From positions 1-52,847 of the forward strand of contig JAGGWH010000163.1 of the NCBI GenBank assembly GCA_021157585.1: a stretch of DNA of 52,847 nucleotides. Reading direction: 5' to 3'. The stretch comes from Bacteroidales bacterium (GTDB lineage Bacteria > Bacteroidota > Bacteroidia > Bacteroidales > UBA12170). Shown piece after piece: positions 28,042 to 34,863 of the stretch. The stretch's first letter is position 1; the number at the start of each line of letters is the position of its first letter. The position numbers and the translations under genes are program-made. The notes under the pieces were generated by a model. That model was not told where the DNA came from. It ran no database searches and saw nothing but the letters and a program-made list of their open reading frames with translations.

Positions 28042-28540
28042 TTAGCCCTTTAGTTTAAATTGCTGTTTGAGATATTATAAATTGTGCTTTAAAATATTAT
28101 TGAATTTCGACAAATGTAAGAATATTTTATGTTATGTATAGCTTGATTATTATAAACAAAGACCTTTATCTGTTTCGTTTTTTTCCTCGACTATTTAGTC
28201 TTATTCATTATTTTAGTGTAAGCTCGGGGCTTATTAGTAAATGTTTTTATTAATGTTCTTTTTTAAATAGCAAGACATAGCTCTTATTTAGATTTTATTT
28301 TGGCTTGAGCAAGAGTATTTTGGCTCACGAATATATTAATTTCACAAAAAAAAACTTCGTTATAAAATTTTCAAACAATGATTATTTCCTAATAAAGTCG
28401 GAAGCTTTTGAAAAAAATATATACCTTAGCGCAAGTAATACGGTTTAGTTTCTGTACTTCAAAAGAATTTTTTATTAAACTCTTTTAAGGAAGCTTAATT
28501 ACTGAAGATAGGAGTATTGGTTGAATTAAAATCAGGTCGT
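28042..28540. other. Divergent intergenic region between ruvB and the stress-protein operon
   Basis: Nearly 500 bases with no supported gene. On the ruvB side the minus strand carries TACATTTG (complement of 28111-28118), an exact -7 match without a good -33. Towards the stress-protein operon the ten-base sequence TATTTTGGCT occurs twice, at 28296-28305 and 28316-28325, exactly 20 bases apart, with the palindromic CTTGAGCAAG between them. No clear housekeeping promoter was found before the ATG at 28541, so that operon may use another sigma factor or an activator. Confidence 0.55.
28296..28325 (+). repeat. Two direct copies of TATTTTGGCT spaced by two helical turns
   Basis: Copies at 28296-28305 and 28316-28325, period 20 bases. 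Such phasing places both on the same DNA face, as in sites of a dimeric or tandemly bound regulator. It lies about 215-245 bases before the first universal-stress-protein gene. No binding protein can be named. Confidence 0.4.
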
Positions 28541-29377
28541 ATGAAAGATATTATAGTTGCTATGGATTTTTCAAGAGGTGCAATGCGCGCCTTAGATTAT
28601 GCTATAAAAATAGCCAATAATACTCAATCTGATATTTTACTCGTTTGGGTCGATTCTCAGAGCACCAAAGAAATTTCTGCCGGTTTATGTAAGAATGAGC
28701 TTCGCCGAGATGCTAAAATTGAGCTTCAGAGAATTGTGAAAGAAAGGATGAATCTGCTAAAAGGAGGTAAGTTTAAAATAAAATTACGTAAGGGTAAGGT
28801 TTATCAAGAGCTGGCTTCACAGGCTAAAACATCTGATTCTGAATTAATAATAGTGGGAACGCATGGGATATCCGGTTACGAAGAGTTTTGGATTGGAAGT
28901 AATGCATTTAAAATTATTTCTTATGCTGCTTGTCCTGTAATTAGTATTCGTTATAATTATAATGTTAGAAAACCAATTGAAAGAATAATTGTCCCTATCG
29001 ATAATTCCATAGACTCCATTAAAAAAATTCCAATGGCTGCTAAAATGGCCAAAGCTTTTGGAGCAGAAATTCACTTATTATCAGTTTATACCACGACATT
29101 AGTTTCTTTGAAAAAGAAAGTTGATAGAGTTGTTATGGAATCCGGAAAATATTTAAGCAAAGAAAGCGTTCCTTTTGTAATTGATGTTGTGCAATCAAAT
29201 AATTTGCCGGTTACTGTAGTTGATTATGCTGAAAAAGTTAAGGGAGATATGATAGTGATTATGACAGATCAGGAAAAAGCTAACTTAAGTATCTTGATGG
29301 GAGATTATAGTCAGAAGATAATAAATTTATCTTCAATACCAATTTTAAGCGTTAAACCAGAAAGTTTATTTAATTAA
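28541..29377 (+). CDS. Tandem universal stress protein (two UspA domains)
   Basis: A 278-residue protein, start chosen at ATG 28541 (MKDIIVAMDFS); a TTG at 28517 is in frame but lies before the conserved first strand. Two UspA domains: residues 1-138, with IVVAMD-type strand and IIVGTHGISGYEEFWIGSNAF, and 142-278, with RIIVPIDNSIDSIKKIP. The first domain has the nucleotide-binding-type GTHG...GSNA motif; in the second this motif is degraded (IMTDQEKANLSILMGD), so probably only one domain binds ATP. Cytoplasmic. It overlaps the SPOR gene by one base (TAATG), and a related gene follows at 29854-30702. Confidence 0.88.
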   Translation: MKDIIVAMDFSRGAMRALDYAIKIANNTQSDILLVWVDSQSTKEISAGLCKNELRRDAKIELQRIVKERMNLLKGGKFKIKLRKGKVYQELASQAKTSDSELIIVGTHGISGYEEFWIGSNAFKIISYAACPVISIRYNYNVRKPIERIIVPIDNSIDSIKKIPMAAKMAKAFGAEIHLLSVYTTTLVSLKKKVDRVVMESGKYLSKESVPFVIDVVQSNNLPVTVVDYAEKVKGDMIVIMTDQEKANLSILMGDYSQKIINLSSIPILSVKPESLFN

Positions 29378-29814
29378 TGCAAAAAACTAAATACGTTTTA
29401 TTTACTATTTGTGTAGTTCTTCAGCTATCTGTAAGTGCTCAAACAGAATCTCTTAAAGATATATTCCCTCCTCTGAGTAAGGAGCAGCGTTTAGATTCAC
29501 TTATAATGTTACATAAGGAGTTGAATGCAATTAATAGTTCTATTCCCGGCTATCGAATACAAATTTATTTTGAATCAGGAAATTATTCGAAGTCGAAAGC
29601 CGTAGAAGTTAAGAAAGCTTTTGAATCAGACTATCTCGGTTACAGTGCGTATATATCATTTAATGAACCATATTATCGTGTCAGGGTGGGAGACTTTAGA
29701 ACAAAAATTGAGGCTGTAGGTTTTTTAAAGAAAATACTGAGAAAATATCCCAACGCCTTTGAGGTAAAAGATATGATTTCTTTTGGTAATTTTGAAAGTG
29801 TAACTAAATTTTAA
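29377..29814 (+). CDS. Exported SPOR-domain protein
   Basis: A 145-residue protein with a signal peptide (about 1-21, QLSVSAQ). Residues 60-140 form a SPOR domain: GYRIQIYFESGNYSKSKAVEV, YRVRVGDFRTKIEAVGFLKKI. SPOR domains bind glycan strands stripped of stem peptides at division sites and elsewhere in the cell wall. The start codon overlaps the stop of the upstream stress-protein gene, so the two are translated together. The pairing of a cytoplasmic stress protein with a periplasmic wall-binding protein is the odd point. Confidence 0.85.
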   Translation: MQKTKYVLFTICVVLQLSVSAQTESLKDIFPPLSKEQRLDSLIMLHKELNAINSSIPGYRIQIYFESGNYSKSKAVEVKKAFESDYLGYSAYISFNEPYYRVRVGDFRTKIEAVGFLKKILRKYPNAFEVKDMISFGNFESVTKF

Positions 29815-29822
29815 GTATATTT

Positions 29823-29838
29823 ACCCCAATTAAGGGGT
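29823..29838 (+). terminator. Short hairpin between the SPOR gene and the second stress-protein gene
   Basis: Five GC-rich pairs (29823-29827 with 29834-29838, loop of six) followed after a few bases by a T-rich run ending at the ATG of the next gene. It could reduce read-through into the second gene or act as a leader structure. The stem is short. Confidence 0.3.
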
Positions 29839-29853
29839 CAAAATTTATTTTTT

Positions 29854-30702
29854 ATGAGAGCAATAGTTGTTGGTATCGATTTTTTAAATGAGTCGCTTTC
29901 TGCTTTAAAATTGGCTGTTATTATTGCAGCTAAAGCTAAATCTGATATTATTTTAGTTTTTGTAAATAAGTACGATAAGTCGAAACCTATTTTTAAAACT
30001 CCGGAAGATAAGCTGAAGGAAGAGGTTGAAGAAAGGTTTAAAGGTTTGATACTAAAATATTCAGATAAAATCCCTGCTAATAAATTTTCCTATCGCTTTA
30101 GAGAAGGTAAAAAAATATGTGATGTAATTAATGACGAAGCAGAGAATTGGCGAGCAGAGCTAATTGTTTTAGGTACTCAAGGGAAAATAGGACTAAAGTT
30201 ATTCTCTCATTCTTTAGCTTTTGAAGTAATTGAAAAATCTACTACTCCTGTTATTACTGTTAGAGATGGAGCTAAAATTTCAAACGAAATTAAGAAGGTG
30301 TTAATTCCAATTGATGATACTCTGGAAACCCGTCAGAAAGTTCCATTTACAGTTCGTATGGCGAGAATATTTGGTGCCGAGATTCATATGTTGGCAATTT
30401 ATCATTCTGCAGTACAGACTGTTAGAGATAATGTAGAGCGTTATACTCGTCAATCTGCTGAGTACTTAGAAGCCAATAATGTTAATTTTATTGTAAAATC
30501 AATAGACACTAAAGATGTTGTTAATGAAACTATTAAGTATGCCGAGGAGATTGATGCTGATATTGTTTCTATTATGACTACTCAAATTGGTGTTGTTTCA
30601 AATCTTTGGAAAGGGACTTTTGCAGAACAACTCATAGATCAATCATCAATTCCGGTTATTACTGTACCTCCCAAAGAATTGATGCGAACTTTGTCTCGCT
30701 AA
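29854..30702 (+). CDS. Tandem universal stress protein (second copy)
   Basis: A 282-residue protein with two UspA domains, paralogous to the product of 28541-29377. Domain 1 (1-144) has IVVGIDFLNESLSALKLAV and LIVLGTQGKIGLKLFSHSLAFEV; domain 2 (147-282) has KVLIPIDDTLETRQKVP and a degraded second nucleotide loop (SIMTTQIGVVSNLWKG). It starts 39 bases after the SPOR gene and ends before the strong hairpin at 30712-30754. It shares with the first copy the pattern of one conserved and one decayed nucleotide site. Confidence 0.87.
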   Translation: MRAIVVGIDFLNESLSALKLAVIIAAKAKSDIILVFVNKYDKSKPIFKTPEDKLKEEVEERFKGLILKYSDKIPANKFSYRFREGKKICDVINDEAENWRAELIVLGTQGKIGLKLFSHSLAFEVIEKSTTPVITVRDGAKISNEIKKVLIPIDDTLETRQKVPFTVRMARIFGAEIHMLAIYHSAVQTVRDNVERYTRQSAEYLEANNVNFIVKSIDTKDVVNETIKYAEEIDADIVSIMTTQIGVVSNLWKGTFAEQLIDQSSIPVITVPPKELMRTLSR

Positions 30703-30711
30703 AATTAAAAA

Positions 30712-30754
30712 AATAAACAAGGGCGTGATATTTATTATCACGCCCTTGTTTATT
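30712..30754. terminator. Strong bidirectional terminator
   Basis: A perfect 19-bp inverted repeat (30712-30730 with 30736-30754, loop TTTAT) with a GC-rich core and A/T flanks serving both strands. It separates the stress-protein cluster from the convergent lone receiver gene. Confidence 0.9.
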
Positions 30755-30770
30755 ATAAAAGTGTTATGTT

Positions 30771-31163
30771 TTAAATGTATTTAGAAATTACACTTAACAA
30801 TTCATTTGTTCTGATTGGCTTTAAAATATAGTCGTCACTTCCGGCAGCAAAACTTTTTTCGCGTTCTCCAGCAAAAGCATAAGCAGTTTGTGTGATAATC
30901 GGAATATTTTTATTTAAATTCTTAATTAAACGGATAGCTTTATAGCCATTCATAATTGGCATATTAATATCCATTAATATCAAATCTATTTGGACATCCG
31001 TTTTACAAGCATCATAAGCTTCCTTGCCATTTTTTGCCCATAAAACCTTTGCTTTTGTAGGTTTAATAGCGTGAAGAAGAAATTTGTAATTGTGATTAAC
31101 ATCTTCAACAACCATTATCGTCTTATCAGACCAATCGTACTTAAATGGTGTTTCTGTACTCAT
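30771..31163 (-). CDS. Single-domain response regulator (orphan receiver)
   Basis: A 130-residue receiver without output domain: acidic residues in VVEDVNHNYKF, Asp65 in LILMDINMPIMNG, Thr in ITQTAYA, Lys in LKPIR. No kinase gene is next to it. It is clearly related to the lone receiver at 25618-26025 and to the C-terminal receiver of the hybrid kinase at 48706-51471, so it may share a kinase with them. A near -7 element (TAATTTCG, complement of 31186-31193) lies 23 bases upstream. It is 89 bases downstream of the aldolase gene on the same strand, probably with its own promoter. Confidence 0.88.
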   Translation of the reverse strand: MSTETPFKYDWSDKTIMVVEDVNHNYKFLLHAIKPTKAKVLWAKNGKEAYDACKTDVQIDLILMDINMPIMNGYKAIRLIKNLNKNIPIITQTAYAFAGEREKSFAAGSDDYILKPIRTNELLSVISKYI

Positions 31164-31252
31164 TTTTTTAGTTTTAGATTATATGCGAAATTATAGTATA
31201 CCAAAAATAACAATTTTTATTGATATTAAAAATAAAACCTTAGAGTTCAATT

Positions 31253-32332
31253 TTAATTTCTGTTGATAGCATTCAAATCATTAAAAGCAACTTCAAGACG
31301 CTTGATTATTGATTCTTCTCCGGCTCTAAGCCACTTTCTTGGATCATAGTACTTTTTGTTAGGTACTTCATCGCCTTCGGGATTACCAATTTGAGATTGT
31401 AGATAATCTTTCTTTTCTTTATAATATTCATGAACACCATCCCAAAATGCCCATTGTGTATCAGTATCGATATTCATTTTTATAACGCCATAAGAAATTG
31501 CTTCTCTAATATCCTCCTGACTAGACCCTGAACCTCCATGAAAAACAAAATTTACGGGTTGGGGGGCTGTATTGAATTTTTTCTCGATATATTTTTGAGA
31601 GTTATCTAAAATTTTAGGAGTAAGTTTTACATTTCCTGGTTTATAAACTCCATGTACATTTCCAAAAGAAGCAGCAATGGTAAAGTTTGGACTAACTTTT
31701 AAAAGCTCTTCATAAGCATATGCAACTTCTTCGGGTTGTGTATACAGCTTAGAACTGTCTACCTCACTATTATCTACTCCATCTTCTTCTCCACCGGTGA
31801 TACCTAATTCTATTTCTAAAGTCATCCCCAATTTAGCCATTCTAGCTAAGTATTTCTTCGATATCTCAATATTTTCTTTTATTGGCTCTTCCGATAAGTC
31901 GAGCATATGTGATGAAAATAGAGGTTTCCCGTTTTTTTCATAAAATTTTTCTCCGGCATCTAAAAGACCATCAATCCAAGGTAATAATTTCTTGGCTGCA
32001 TGGTCGGTATGCATAATTACTGCAACACCGTAAATTTCTGCCAATTCATGAACATGTAACGCAGCTGTAATACCACCTGCAATTGAGGCTTGTTGTTTGT
32101 CGTTTGGGAGAGCTTTTCCTGCATAAAATGAGGCTCCACCGTTAGATAATTGAATAATTACCGGAGAGTTTACTTTTTTTGCACTTTCTAAAACAGCATT
32201 AACAGTATCTGTACCTGTTACATTAACCGCAGGTAAAGCAAATTGATTGGCTTTAGCTATTTTGAAAACTTTTGCTATATCTTCACCAAAAAGAACTCCG
32301 GGTTTAATGTGGTCGAATATTTTATCTGACAT
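31253..32332 (-). CDS. fbaA: Class II fructose-bisphosphate aldolase
   Basis: A 359-residue zinc enzyme that interconverts fructose 1,6-bisphosphate with dihydroxyacetone phosphate and glyceraldehyde 3-phosphate in glycolysis and gluconeogenesis. Family marks: FALPAVNVTGTDTVNAVLE at the N terminus, VIMHTDHAAKK with a zinc histidine, ELGITGGEEDGVDNS, GNVHGVYKPG, VFHGGSGSSQEDI and GVIKMNIDTDTQWA, the phosphate-binding loop. Length and the long insertions fit class IIA (E. coli FbaA type). Monocistronic. Confidence 0.96.
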   Translation of the reverse strand: MSDKIFDHIKPGVLFGEDIAKVFKIAKANQFALPAVNVTGTDTVNAVLESAKKVNSPVIIQLSNGGASFYAGKALPNDKQQASIAGGITAALHVHELAEIYGVAVIMHTDHAAKKLLPWIDGLLDAGEKFYEKNGKPLFSSHMLDLSEEPIKENIEISKKYLARMAKLGMTLEIELGITGGEEDGVDNSEVDSSKLYTQPEEVAYAYEELLKVSPNFTIAASFGNVHGVYKPGNVKLTPKILDNSQKYIEKKFNTAPQPVNFVFHGGSGSSQEDIREAISYGVIKMNIDTDTQWAFWDGVHEYYKEKKDYLQSQIGNPEGDEVPNKKYYDPRKWLRAGEESIIKRLEVAFNDLNAINRN

Positions 32333-32563: not shown

Positions 32564-34552
32564 ATGCTTTATAGAACTATAAGTATTTCCTCTTTTAAAG
32601 TGTGTATAGCCATTACTTTTATTCTGGGCTATAGCTTATCTTTTACCTATGCTCAACAACAAAGCTCTTCCGAATACTTTAAGAAAATAGATGATTTAAT
32701 AAATCAAGATTTAAATAAAGCCTTAGATTATTCTATAGTTTTAGAAAAAGATTATCCTGGATTTAAAGAAGAGTTGATGCTCAAACAAGCTCAGATATTT
32801 TCCGGCTTAGGAAAGTTCAGTCAAGCCGATTCTTTATTGAGTTTAGTTAGTAGTTCAAGCATTAAAAATACAAGTCCTGAATATAGAGCTAACCTTTTTA
32901 TTCTTAAAGCTGTTGCTTTGAGGTATATCGAAAATTATTCTGATGCTGTGCTTCAGGTTAATAAAGCAGAGATAATATATGCCGAACTTGATCCTCAATC
33001 TGTTCCCTATGATGTAAATATGCAGTATGCACAAATTTATTCATTGTTAGGAAATTATTCTAAGGCATTAGACTATATAGACATAAGTCTGAAAAAAGGT
33101 AAGGATTTAAATAGTGAACAAGAATTTGCATTACTTTTTCAAAAAGTATTATTGTATGACCAACTGAATAATTTAAAAGAAGAATATAATTCTTTAGAGC
33201 GTTTAAACAATCTATGTAAAGGCGATAGTTTATCAATTTATTTAGGAAAATTGAAATTAGCTTGGGCAGACTATTATTTGTCGGTACATAATTATGAGCT
33301 GGCATTAAAATTTTTAAATGAGTCAGAAAATGTTTTCCAAGAAAAAAATTATAGAAGGTATTTATATTCTGTATACATTAAAAAAGCAAGGGTTTTTGCT
33401 ATAAAACATAATGAATTTGCCCAAAAATTATTTTTACAGCAAGCAATTATCCAAGCTGAAAATTTAGGCGATATATCTTTGATTTTTGAAGCAAAATTGA
33501 AATTAGCCGACTTATTCTATCTTCAAAATGAAAACGATAGTGCTTTTAGGTATGTTAATTCAGTGATCGATAATTCGCCATTTCTTAAACAAAAGATAAT
33601 GGCTTATGATATCTTAAAATCCATTTGTTTAAGAAAGAATAATTATATTGATGGATTAAGTGCTCTTGAAAATCGGCAGATATTAAGTGATAGCTTAAAT
33701 ACATTTGAATTGAATAAGGCACTTGCTTCAGGTCAATTTGATTTTGATAATTCTAAGTATGAAGAGGATAAAGTGGAAATTGAAAACCAGTTAGCAGTGT
33801 ATAAACTTGCAAGTAAGAACCATATACTTTTAATACAATTTATTGGGGCGGCTTTGCTATTAGCGATGATTTTTGGTTTTTCTTTGTATTTCTTTATCAA
33901 ATCACAAAACGAAAGAAAGAACAGTTTGTTATCTCAAAAGCTGATATATTTACAATTAAATGCTCATTTTATTTTTAATTCTTTAACGGCAATTCAGGGT
34001 TTAATACTAAAAAGTAAGATAGTTAATGCAGAGCATTATCTTCAAATATTTGCTGATTTAATGCAAAATATTATAAAGTTATCTACTCATCCTCTTATTC
34101 CACTACATGAAGAGTTGAGTTTTTTAATGGCTTATATGCAACTGCAAAAGTTGCGTTTTGGAAATGATTTAAATTATGAAATTTCTATAAGTGATGAGAT
34201 AGATCCACAGCAAATTAGCATTCCGCCATTTTTGATTTATCCTTATTTGGAGTATGCAATTGAATTTCGTATACAAAAAAAAGGAGCAAAAGGATCTATA
34301 AGTATTCAATTTATGATAGAAGAGAATAAATTACTTATAGAATTGGAAGATAATGGAATAGGATTTTTAGTGCCACAACAAGCATTCTTAAAACGACCAA
34401 ATCAGGATGAGATTTTATTATTTGAATTAACATCTAATCGTTTAAGAGAGCTTAATTCATGGCGTTCTAAAAACTATCAAATGAATTTGATTAATTCAAT
34501 AGATGAAAAAGGTGAGGAGAAGGGTATTTTACAGTTTAAAATAAAGATATAG
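32564..34552 (+). CDS. TPR sensor with a degenerate LytS-type histidine kinase domain
   Basis: A 662-residue protein. Residues 1-30 are a signal peptide or anchor (YSLSFTYAQQ). Residues 30-400 are TPR-like helical pairs, periplasmic. A membrane segment (about 422-446) leads to a His_kinase (LytS) domain with His468 in LNAHFIFNSLTAIQG. In the ATPase domain the usual N-box PxLxxPLVENAIKH reads FLIYPYLEYAIEF: the key Asn is Tyr564. G1 is present (DNGIG, Asp596), but no GxGLxN lid follows, only LFELTSNRLRELN. It is therefore doubtful that it binds ATP as a normal kinase. No LytTR regulator is adjacent; a small thiamine-binding-family gene starts five bases on. Confidence 0.85.
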   Translation: MLYRTISISSFKVCIAITFILGYSLSFTYAQQQSSSEYFKKIDDLINQDLNKALDYSIVLEKDYPGFKEELMLKQAQIFSGLGKFSQADSLLSLVSSSSIKNTSPEYRANLFILKAVALRYIENYSDAVLQVNKAEIIYAELDPQSVPYDVNMQYAQIYSLLGNYSKALDYIDISLKKGKDLNSEQEFALLFQKVLLYDQLNNLKEEYNSLERLNNLCKGDSLSIYLGKLKLAWADYYLSVHNYELALKFLNESENVFQEKNYRRYLYSVYIKKARVFAIKHNEFAQKLFLQQAIIQAENLGDISLIFEAKLKLADLFYLQNENDSAFRYVNSVIDNSPFLKQKIMAYDILKSICLRKNNYIDGLSALENRQILSDSLNTFELNKALASGQFDFDNSKYEEDKVEIENQLAVYKLASKNHILLIQFIGAALLLAMIFGFSLYFFIKSQNERKNSLLSQKLIYLQLNAHFIFNSLTAIQGLILKSKIVNAEHYLQIFADLMQNIIKLSTHPLIPLHEELSFLMAYMQLQKLRFGNDLNYEISISDEIDPQQISIPPFLIYPYLEYAIEFRIQKKGAKGSISIQFMIEENKLLIELEDNGIGFLVPQQAFLKRPNQDEILLFELTSNRLRELNSWRSKNYQMNLINSIDEKGEEKGILQFKIKI

Positions 34553-34557
34553 CGTAG

Positions 34558-34863
34558 ATGTCAGTACTTGTTAATTTTGCTATTTTCCCGACGGATAAAG
34601 GGACTAGTGTAAGTAAAGAGGTTAGTGAAGTTTTAAAGACCATTATCAATAGTGGTTTTGATTATAACTTAAATGCAATGGGAACCGTTTTTGAAACCAA
34701 AACAATGGAACAGGCATTGCAAATAATTCAAGAAGCATATAATGTTTTAAAGCAGCACGAAAGAGTGTATTTGGTTGTAAATATGGATATTCAGAAAAAT
34801 AAAGATGGTCGTATTTTAACTAAAATACAATCTGTTGAAAATAAGCTTAAAACGCGGAGTTAA
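34558..34863 (+). CDS. MTH1187/YqgV family thiamine-binding-type protein (DUF77)
   Basis: A 101-residue protein with a ferredoxin-like fold: VNFAIFPTDKGTSVSKEVSEVLKTI, the long helix, then YNLNAMGTVFETKTMEQALQIIQEA and RVYLVVNMDIQKN. These are the conserved strands of the MTH1187/YkoF-like superfamily, some members of which bind thiamine in the cytoplasm. It starts five bases after the TPR sensor gene and is probably translated together with it. No thiamine gene or TPP riboswitch is nearby. Confidence 0.82.
   Translation: MSVLVNFAIFPTDKGTSVSKEVSEVLKTIINSGFDYNLNAMGTVFETKTMEQALQIIQEAYNVLKQHERVYLVVNMDIQKNKDGRILTKIQSVENKLKTRS

Follow-up and report, generated by a model that had tools for sequence, protein, structure and literature searches.

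A membrane sensor protein, here called psI, from an uncultured group of Bacteroidales bacteria carries a LytS-type domain of predicted histidine kinase fold in which the N-box Asn is replaced by Tyr or Phe in every complete member of the clade and the phosphoacceptor His is retained. Purifying selection acts on this domain, and in the genus the psI gene, where present, is linked to a gene for a PF01910 protein. This combination points to a sensor derived from a histidine kinase that would no longer use ATP itself. The window, meaning the whole stretch of 52,847 nucleotides that was analysed, is one contig of a draft genome of 2.93 Mb in 183 contigs, and the features of the psI locus are as follows.

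32564..34552, + strand: psI, a TPR sensor with a putative LytS-type histidine pseudokinase domain, 662 aa (open reading frame; PF06580 score)
32564..32656, + strand: probable signal peptide of psI, residues 1-31 (by eye)
33824..33898, + strand: probable transmembrane helix of psI, about residues 421-445 (hydrophobic stretch, by eye)
33953..33997, + strand: H-box of psI, residues 464-478, with His468 (33965-33967) kept and the Pro before it replaced by Ala467 (alignment)
34223..34276, + strand: former N-box of psI, residues 554-571, with Tyr564 (34253-34255) in place of Asn and the further changes Gln559 to Tyr, His568 to Phe and Gly569 to Arg (alignment)
34349..34366, + strand: G1-like motif of psI, Asp596-Phe601, with Asp596, Gly600 and Phe601 invariant in the six members (alignment)
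34391..34396, + strand: Lys610-Arg611 of psI, in what was once the lid loop, conserved throughout the six members but not among controls (alignment)
34558..34863, + strand: PF01910 protein (Thiamine_BP, DUF77/MTH1187-like), 101 aa, directly downstream of psI (open reading frame; Pfam)
31253..32332, - strand: fba, class II fructose-bisphosphate aldolase, divergent from psI (open reading frame; named by eye)
30771..31163, - strand: single-domain receiver adjoining fba (open reading frame; named by eye)

The psI protein matched PF06580 (His_kinase) at 57.3 bits against a cut-off of 25.2, a family matched in all six complete members, with HATPase_c at 12.9 bits falling under its cut-off of 26.4 and the TPR families also scoring below theirs (Pfam). 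A single probable transmembrane helix precedes a LytS-type C-terminus with an HxxFN H-box. The original prediction had named His468 (in NAHFIFNSL), Tyr564 (in LEYAIEF) and Asp596 (in DNGIG) and had a gene of the thiamine-binding family starting five bases past psI; the three residues were found at those positions, and both reading frames are present with a gap of 5 bases. A scan of the window against Rfam at gathering scores gave no match, the TPP riboswitch included, and a short frame near the contig end (51637-52050, - strand) is presumably a piece of a transposase. Modelling of the C-terminus, a check put forward with the original prediction, gave a predicted kinase fold with a DHp hairpin and a CA sandwich (AlphaFold, pLDDT 89, pTM 0.85). 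Tyr564 sits there in the helix preceding the DNGIG strand; since the underlying alignment included intact relatives, little can be read from the model on the pocket. A full-length model has helical repeats at residues 50-381 (mean pLDDT 73) and places the probable transmembrane helix, with low confidence, within a long helix spanning residues 399-482. The best Foldseek match was GanS (6swj, E 1.4e-08), and the list also holds DivL 4q20 and two entries, 4fpp and 4qpk, with chains titled bacterial phosphotransferase, which we take to be ChpT. With VIA-align, 177 residues of GanS 6swk were superposed at 4.9 Å (Z 13.2), and RetS 7n0e had the third-highest Z (11.7, rmsd 2.4 Å, 120 residues), tied with ordinary kinases, a match that reads as shared fold only.

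The genus set comprised 11 genomes, that of the window and ten others, and five complete psI orthologues with 25-40% identity to the window protein were found in the ten. Residue 564 is Y or F and His468 is kept in all six complete proteins, window included. The C-termini of the window protein and four orthologues (five clade rows) were aligned with 67 other LytS-type kinases; rows were picked by a regular expression accepting P, A or S before the His, and those shorter than 190 aa, longer than 270 aa or containing X were left out. These control kinases were found by psI-derived peptide patterns, one just ahead of the His and one covering FN-LTA-Q, which inflates their conservation at Q464, F471, N472, T475, A476 and Q478; the N-box lies outside the patterns. 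An alignment of this kind had been suggested as the check on Tyr564, and it placed the residue in the N-box Asn column, which held Y or F in the five clade rows against N in 67/67 other kinases. Column 559 held Y in the clade and Q in 67/67, column 568 F, N or E against H in 64/67, column 569 R or C against G in 66/67, and column 619 L or C against A, S or G in 66/67. H468, E563, D596 (66/67) and R626 (66/67) were common to clade and controls. Pairing by phmmer likewise set Tyr564 against the same N-box Asn in PDB 6swj. Among the 167 domain hits of a broader set, which contains redundancy, residue 564 was Y or F in 25, all of them psI copies, and N in 137, the remaining five being a second LytS-like gene of the window genome (psII, below), three gapped fragments and one Bifidobacterium row with H.

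Around the His, the residues H468, F469, F471, N472, L474, T475, A476 and Q478 are invariant across the six psI proteins, and Y559, F601, K610 and R611 are new invariant residues of the clade. The dimerisation region, earlier described as normal, is not quite so, as the Pro before the His in 67/67 controls (column 467) is A or S in the clade, and this loss may impair the phosphoacceptor. An intact DNGIG holds for the window protein and fails for its five orthologues, which read DRNIG (two), DVGLG, DIGLG and DKDLG. The DNG is thus altered in 5/6, the DxGxG pattern is kept in 3/6 and Asp596 and Gly600 in 6/6, and some nucleotide binding may therefore remain. The supposed loss of the lid was rejected as evidence for a pseudokinase, because the stretch from D596 to R626 has 29 residues in psI, equal to the control median, and Gly at 619 occurs in merely 7/67 controls. 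The pseudokinase reading itself gains support at the level of sequence from a loss common to all six complete orthologues. Judging from the N-box substitution, psI would have lost the use of ATP and would belong among the histidine pseudokinases, a known class.

In a tree of 53 kinases psI formed one clade (support 100/99). A sample of 393 genomes of the order, with three candidates scored per genome, contained four psI-bearing members of the genus, all with scores of 925 bits or more, and the best of the other kinases reached 269 bits; within the reach of this search the clade is restricted to the genus of the window. Between G010 and G007, the one close pair on which these values rest, with few changes, dN/dS was 0.183 for the whole gene, 0.259 for the signal and TPR part, 0.105 for the transmembrane and DHp part (7 synonymous, 3 non-synonymous changes) and 0.075 for the CA-like part (14 synonymous, 5 non-synonymous changes), consistent with purifying selection on the kinase domain. 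Degenerate motifs might suggest a decaying gene or an assembly error, but this explanation is refuted by frames of 662-684 aa that are open in six of six separate assemblies and by dN/dS well under 1, and we give it almost no weight.

A second family of TPR-LytS-like genes, psII, was found in the window genome (G000:C148, L201:2160-4229), in which Asn stands in place of the His and neither the N-box Asn nor DNG can be recognised. Its orthologues in G002, G003, G004, G007, G008, G009 and G010 (L203-L207, L360, L361) have the His replaced by Q in four and by G in three, and the N-box Asn is absent; psII is thus present in 8/11 genus genomes with His and N-box Asn lost in 8/8, indicating that a degenerate relative can do without the His. 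It adjoins a receiver-LytTR gene in G002, G003, G008 and G009. psI and psII occur together in seven genomes, G003 being counted by the tail of its psI, and psII occurs alone in G004 (75% complete). Neither was found in G001, G005 or G006, where the kinase matches that were read keep both the H-box His and the N-box Asn; G005:C136 was compared by similarity to psII only and gave no hit. A shared origin of psI and psII was rejected: the two split from 41 intact kinases with support of 95/85, where long branches may attract, and in BLASTP of the two proteins from the window genome the alignment was limited to 140 residues between the transmembrane region and the N-box, at 31%.

The absence of a LytTR partner noted in the original prediction holds for the locus, with no LytTR gene adjacent to psI. 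The genome has four LytTR genes, two of them without a LytS-type neighbour.

G000:C153:10170-10928: RR-A (C153 type), receiver-LytTR regulator without an adjacent LytS-type kinase
G000:C72:22510-23271: RR-B (C72 type), receiver-LytTR regulator without an adjacent LytS-type kinase

Orthologues of RR-A and RR-B are found in most genus genomes, including the psI-less G001, G005 and G006, and neither was accepted as a dedicated partner of psI. The receiver at 30771-31163 was rejected in that role as well, being present in G001 and G005, so that all three candidates for a dedicated, co-occurring receiver occur without psI; this receiver is a candidate phosphate donor or acceptor that is not psI-specific. 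Further candidate donors are an intact TPR-LytS kinase of the C57 type, which is cut by a contig end here, is about 940 aa long in relatives and has no LytTR gene on its readable side, and the hybrid kinases recognised by eye in the window. The part of the window at 28517-32332 holds, by eye, two universal-stress-like genes, a gene for a small secreted protein, the single-domain receiver and fba, and this block recurs in several genus genomes.

Given that the ATP-holding residue was lost and the phosphate-carrying His was kept, psI probably passes or senses phosphate made elsewhere. Our favoured reading, held tentatively and at a little under an even chance, is an ATP-blind sensor in a phosphate-accepting role with His468 fed by another protein. 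psI would then be a histidine-kinase-derived sensor unable to use Mg-ATP, with its DHp domain still in use: the periplasmic TPR part would sense a signal, His468 would be phosphorylated or dephosphorylated by another protein, and a response regulator would then receive the phosphate from His468. Two kinds of donor are conceivable, namely a receiver, which is the arrangement of PhyT, ChpT and Spo0B, or an intact kinase that forms a heterodimer with psI, the model put forward for FasB/FasC. What was once the ATP pocket, now changed by Tyr/Phe564, may be kept as a structural or binding surface that includes Y559, F601, K610 and R611.

ChpT and Spo0B are of a different family from psI and are not known to have a membrane sensor, and the DHp of PhyT is of the HRxxN type, in the HWE/HisKA2 class. 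By analogy, PhyT would be the closest working model for psI, followed by ChpT and the proposed FasB/FasC heterodimer. PhyT (PhyP) of Sphingomonas melonis is a membrane-anchored protein with a degenerate ATPase domain that moves phosphate from SdrG to PhyR (PMC5898713). It is like psI in being kinase-derived and membrane-anchored, with a putative periplasmic sensor, a retained DHp His and the degenerate ATPase domain; unlike psI, a LytS-type protein with a TPR sensor and an adjacent PF01910 gene, PhyT lies in a general stress response locus, and its phosphotransfer has been described, whereas that of psI is predicted from sequence. ChpT and Spo0B are dimeric histidine phosphotransferases (PMC3433190; Spo0B as cited there), and ChpT, whose ATP site binds no ATP (PMC3433190), shares with psI the DHp His (kept in 6/6 psI members) and a kinase-like fold with a degenerate ATP site. 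In group A Streptococcus, FasC has been proposed to be a pseudokinase, with FasB phosphorylating its His246 (PMC12675982); psI might likewise have a required His on which an intact paralogue acts within a heterodimer. The fasBCAX genes bring FasC together with both its intact partner FasB and the regulator FasA, whereas psI has neither adjacent to it. In Caulobacter, DivL is likewise a repurposed histidine kinase fold, one that senses another pathway, but it has lost the His (Tyr550) and kept the H, N, G1, F and G2 boxes (PMC4211667), the reverse of the residue pattern of psI, which is thus not of the DivL type.

The main rival to a phosphate-accepting psI is a pure scaffold that acts by protein contacts with no phosphate passing through His468, for instance by inhibiting an intact LytS kinase in a RetS-like heterodimer, or through binding to a receiver or to the PF01910 protein. 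It would account for the lost N-box Asn, for the clade-specific Y559, F601, K610 and R611 and for the persistence across the genus of a psII family without its His, and it draws on the match to RetS, though one tied with ordinary kinases. The invariance of His468 and the H-box in psI, set against the loss of the His in all eight psII proteins, makes the phosphate-accepting role likelier, in reverse of the original prediction, whose first suggestion was binding without phosphotransfer; we regard the scaffold as rather unlikely, if a serious contender. That psI is still an active kinase, with an atypical mode of binding ATP or a different nucleotide, would fit the retained Asp596 and Gly600, the DxGxG of half the members and the normal length of the lid loop, and AlgZ/FimS and YehU of the LytS-type family, whose lid boxes are weak or missing, are treated as kinases (PMC4064291). 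AlgZ, however, keeps the N-box Asn (LLENAL), as do all 67 aligned relatives, and lies upstream of the regulator gene algR, whereas every psI member lacks this Asn and five of six have an altered DNG. An active kinase is accordingly improbable, and the phosphate-accepting reading is kept as the preferred one.

The gene downstream of psI encodes a member of Thiamine_BP PF01910 (66.2 bits, Pfam cut-off 24.9) that falls below the cut-off of TIGR00106, the MTH1187 family of NCBIfam (47.7 bits against 54.7), and has MJ1052 (2eky) and MTH1187 (1lxn) as PDB relatives. It lies directly downstream of psI in 6/6 readable genus loci. The complete pair occurs in 6/11 genus genomes; a seventh, G003, is cut at a contig end, where the PF01910 gene is preceded by a psI-like C-terminal tail of 19 residues (by eye) and fba is found close to where a different contig ends. 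Neither gene is found in G001 (96% complete), G005 (94%), G004 (75%) or G006 (82%), and in G001 and G005 fba and the receiver stand side by side with other genes in place of the pair. Downstream of the pair, by eye, follow era in G002, G008 and G009, and also after the PF01910 gene of G003, yidC in G007 and G010, and a convergent gene in the window; fba is the divergent neighbour in 6/6 complete loci, and in G002 the receiver is no longer beside it. PF01910 genes were found in 100 further genomes among the 393 of the order, and at none of the 86 loci read (26 and 60 in two batches, the other 14 being outside the count) was there a LytS-type kinase in the available flank, whose upstream part was usually 1.5-2 kb and at contig ends as little as 75-82 bases; elsewhere in the order PF01910 is thus a common gene without a LytS-type kinase neighbour. 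At phylum level a kinase neighbour was seen at 1/29 loci, by eye an unrelated PAS kinase, and over the 86 order and 29 phylum loci read a psI-type pairing outside the genus was rejected. In that case (L332:2771-4255, G741) the intact-looking kinase gene ends 6 bases before the PF01910 gene. A loop of the PF01910 protein has 4 residues in 7/7 genus rows, against 5 in 76/77 and 6 in 1/77 rows elsewhere in the order, the 77 remaining after nine of the 86 loci that did not fit the start pattern were dropped. For the G010/G007 pair (L083/L084) the PF01910 gene has 8 non-synonymous and 2 synonymous changes, a dN/dS of 1.06 that has too few changes to use and goes against simple constraint; fba has 2 and 20, respectively.

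A search for conserved pairing, also put forward with the original prediction, thus found it non-random within the genus (six complete pairs, a seventh cut at a contig end, four genomes with neither gene) and absent at the 86 loci elsewhere in the order. Whether the linkage is functionally meaningless gene order inherited in one genus, with psI working alone, is a question apart from the mechanism, and its likelihood does not add to those above. For it speak the separation of PF01910 from LytS-type kinases in the rest of the order, the linkage of fba to psI, as tight as that of PF01910, the lack of both genes in G001 and G005, for which a single deletion might suffice, and the incompleteness of G004 and G006. 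The pair nevertheless stays intact where its downstream neighbour varies and where the receiver has left fba, four genomes, among them two with a completeness of 94% or more, lack both genes, and kinase identity down to 25% makes the linkage old. We judge mere inheritance quite possible, though somewhat less than an even bet. With the constant pair, varying outer neighbours, joint absence and shorter loop taken together, an old, genus-specific operon is likely, although one inherited event could explain all the facts. The PF01910 protein is a possible partner or reporter of psI, as the original prediction had it, and would probably dock on, or report through, the psI system. TM0486, of the PF01910/MTH1187 proteins, is cited for thiamin binding (reference within PMC6393860); the window protein differs from known MTH1187 proteins in its pseudokinase neighbour, the one-residue loop deletion and a score below the TIGR00106 cut-off. 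A literature search, mostly confined to papers outside subscription, found no recognised description of a LytS-type pseudokinase with a PF01910 partner.

The histidine pseudokinases met in the literature consulted are single well-studied cases, namely DivL, PhyT, ChpT, FasC and the laboratory-evolved ChrS. Here a putative LytS-type pseudokinase with a TPR sensor is spread across a Bacteroidales genus, with the His-less psII in the same genomes, and the two families offer a natural contrast, with the His kept or lost, for the role of the phosphoacceptor where the N-box Asn is gone. The pairing with psI also hints at what PF01910 proteins may do. It is a long shot that psI and psII act together as a two-pseudokinase module, with the PF01910 protein as a gating, small-molecule-binding subunit; if true, a binder of the thiamine family would feed its signal through kinase relatives that are unable to use ATP.
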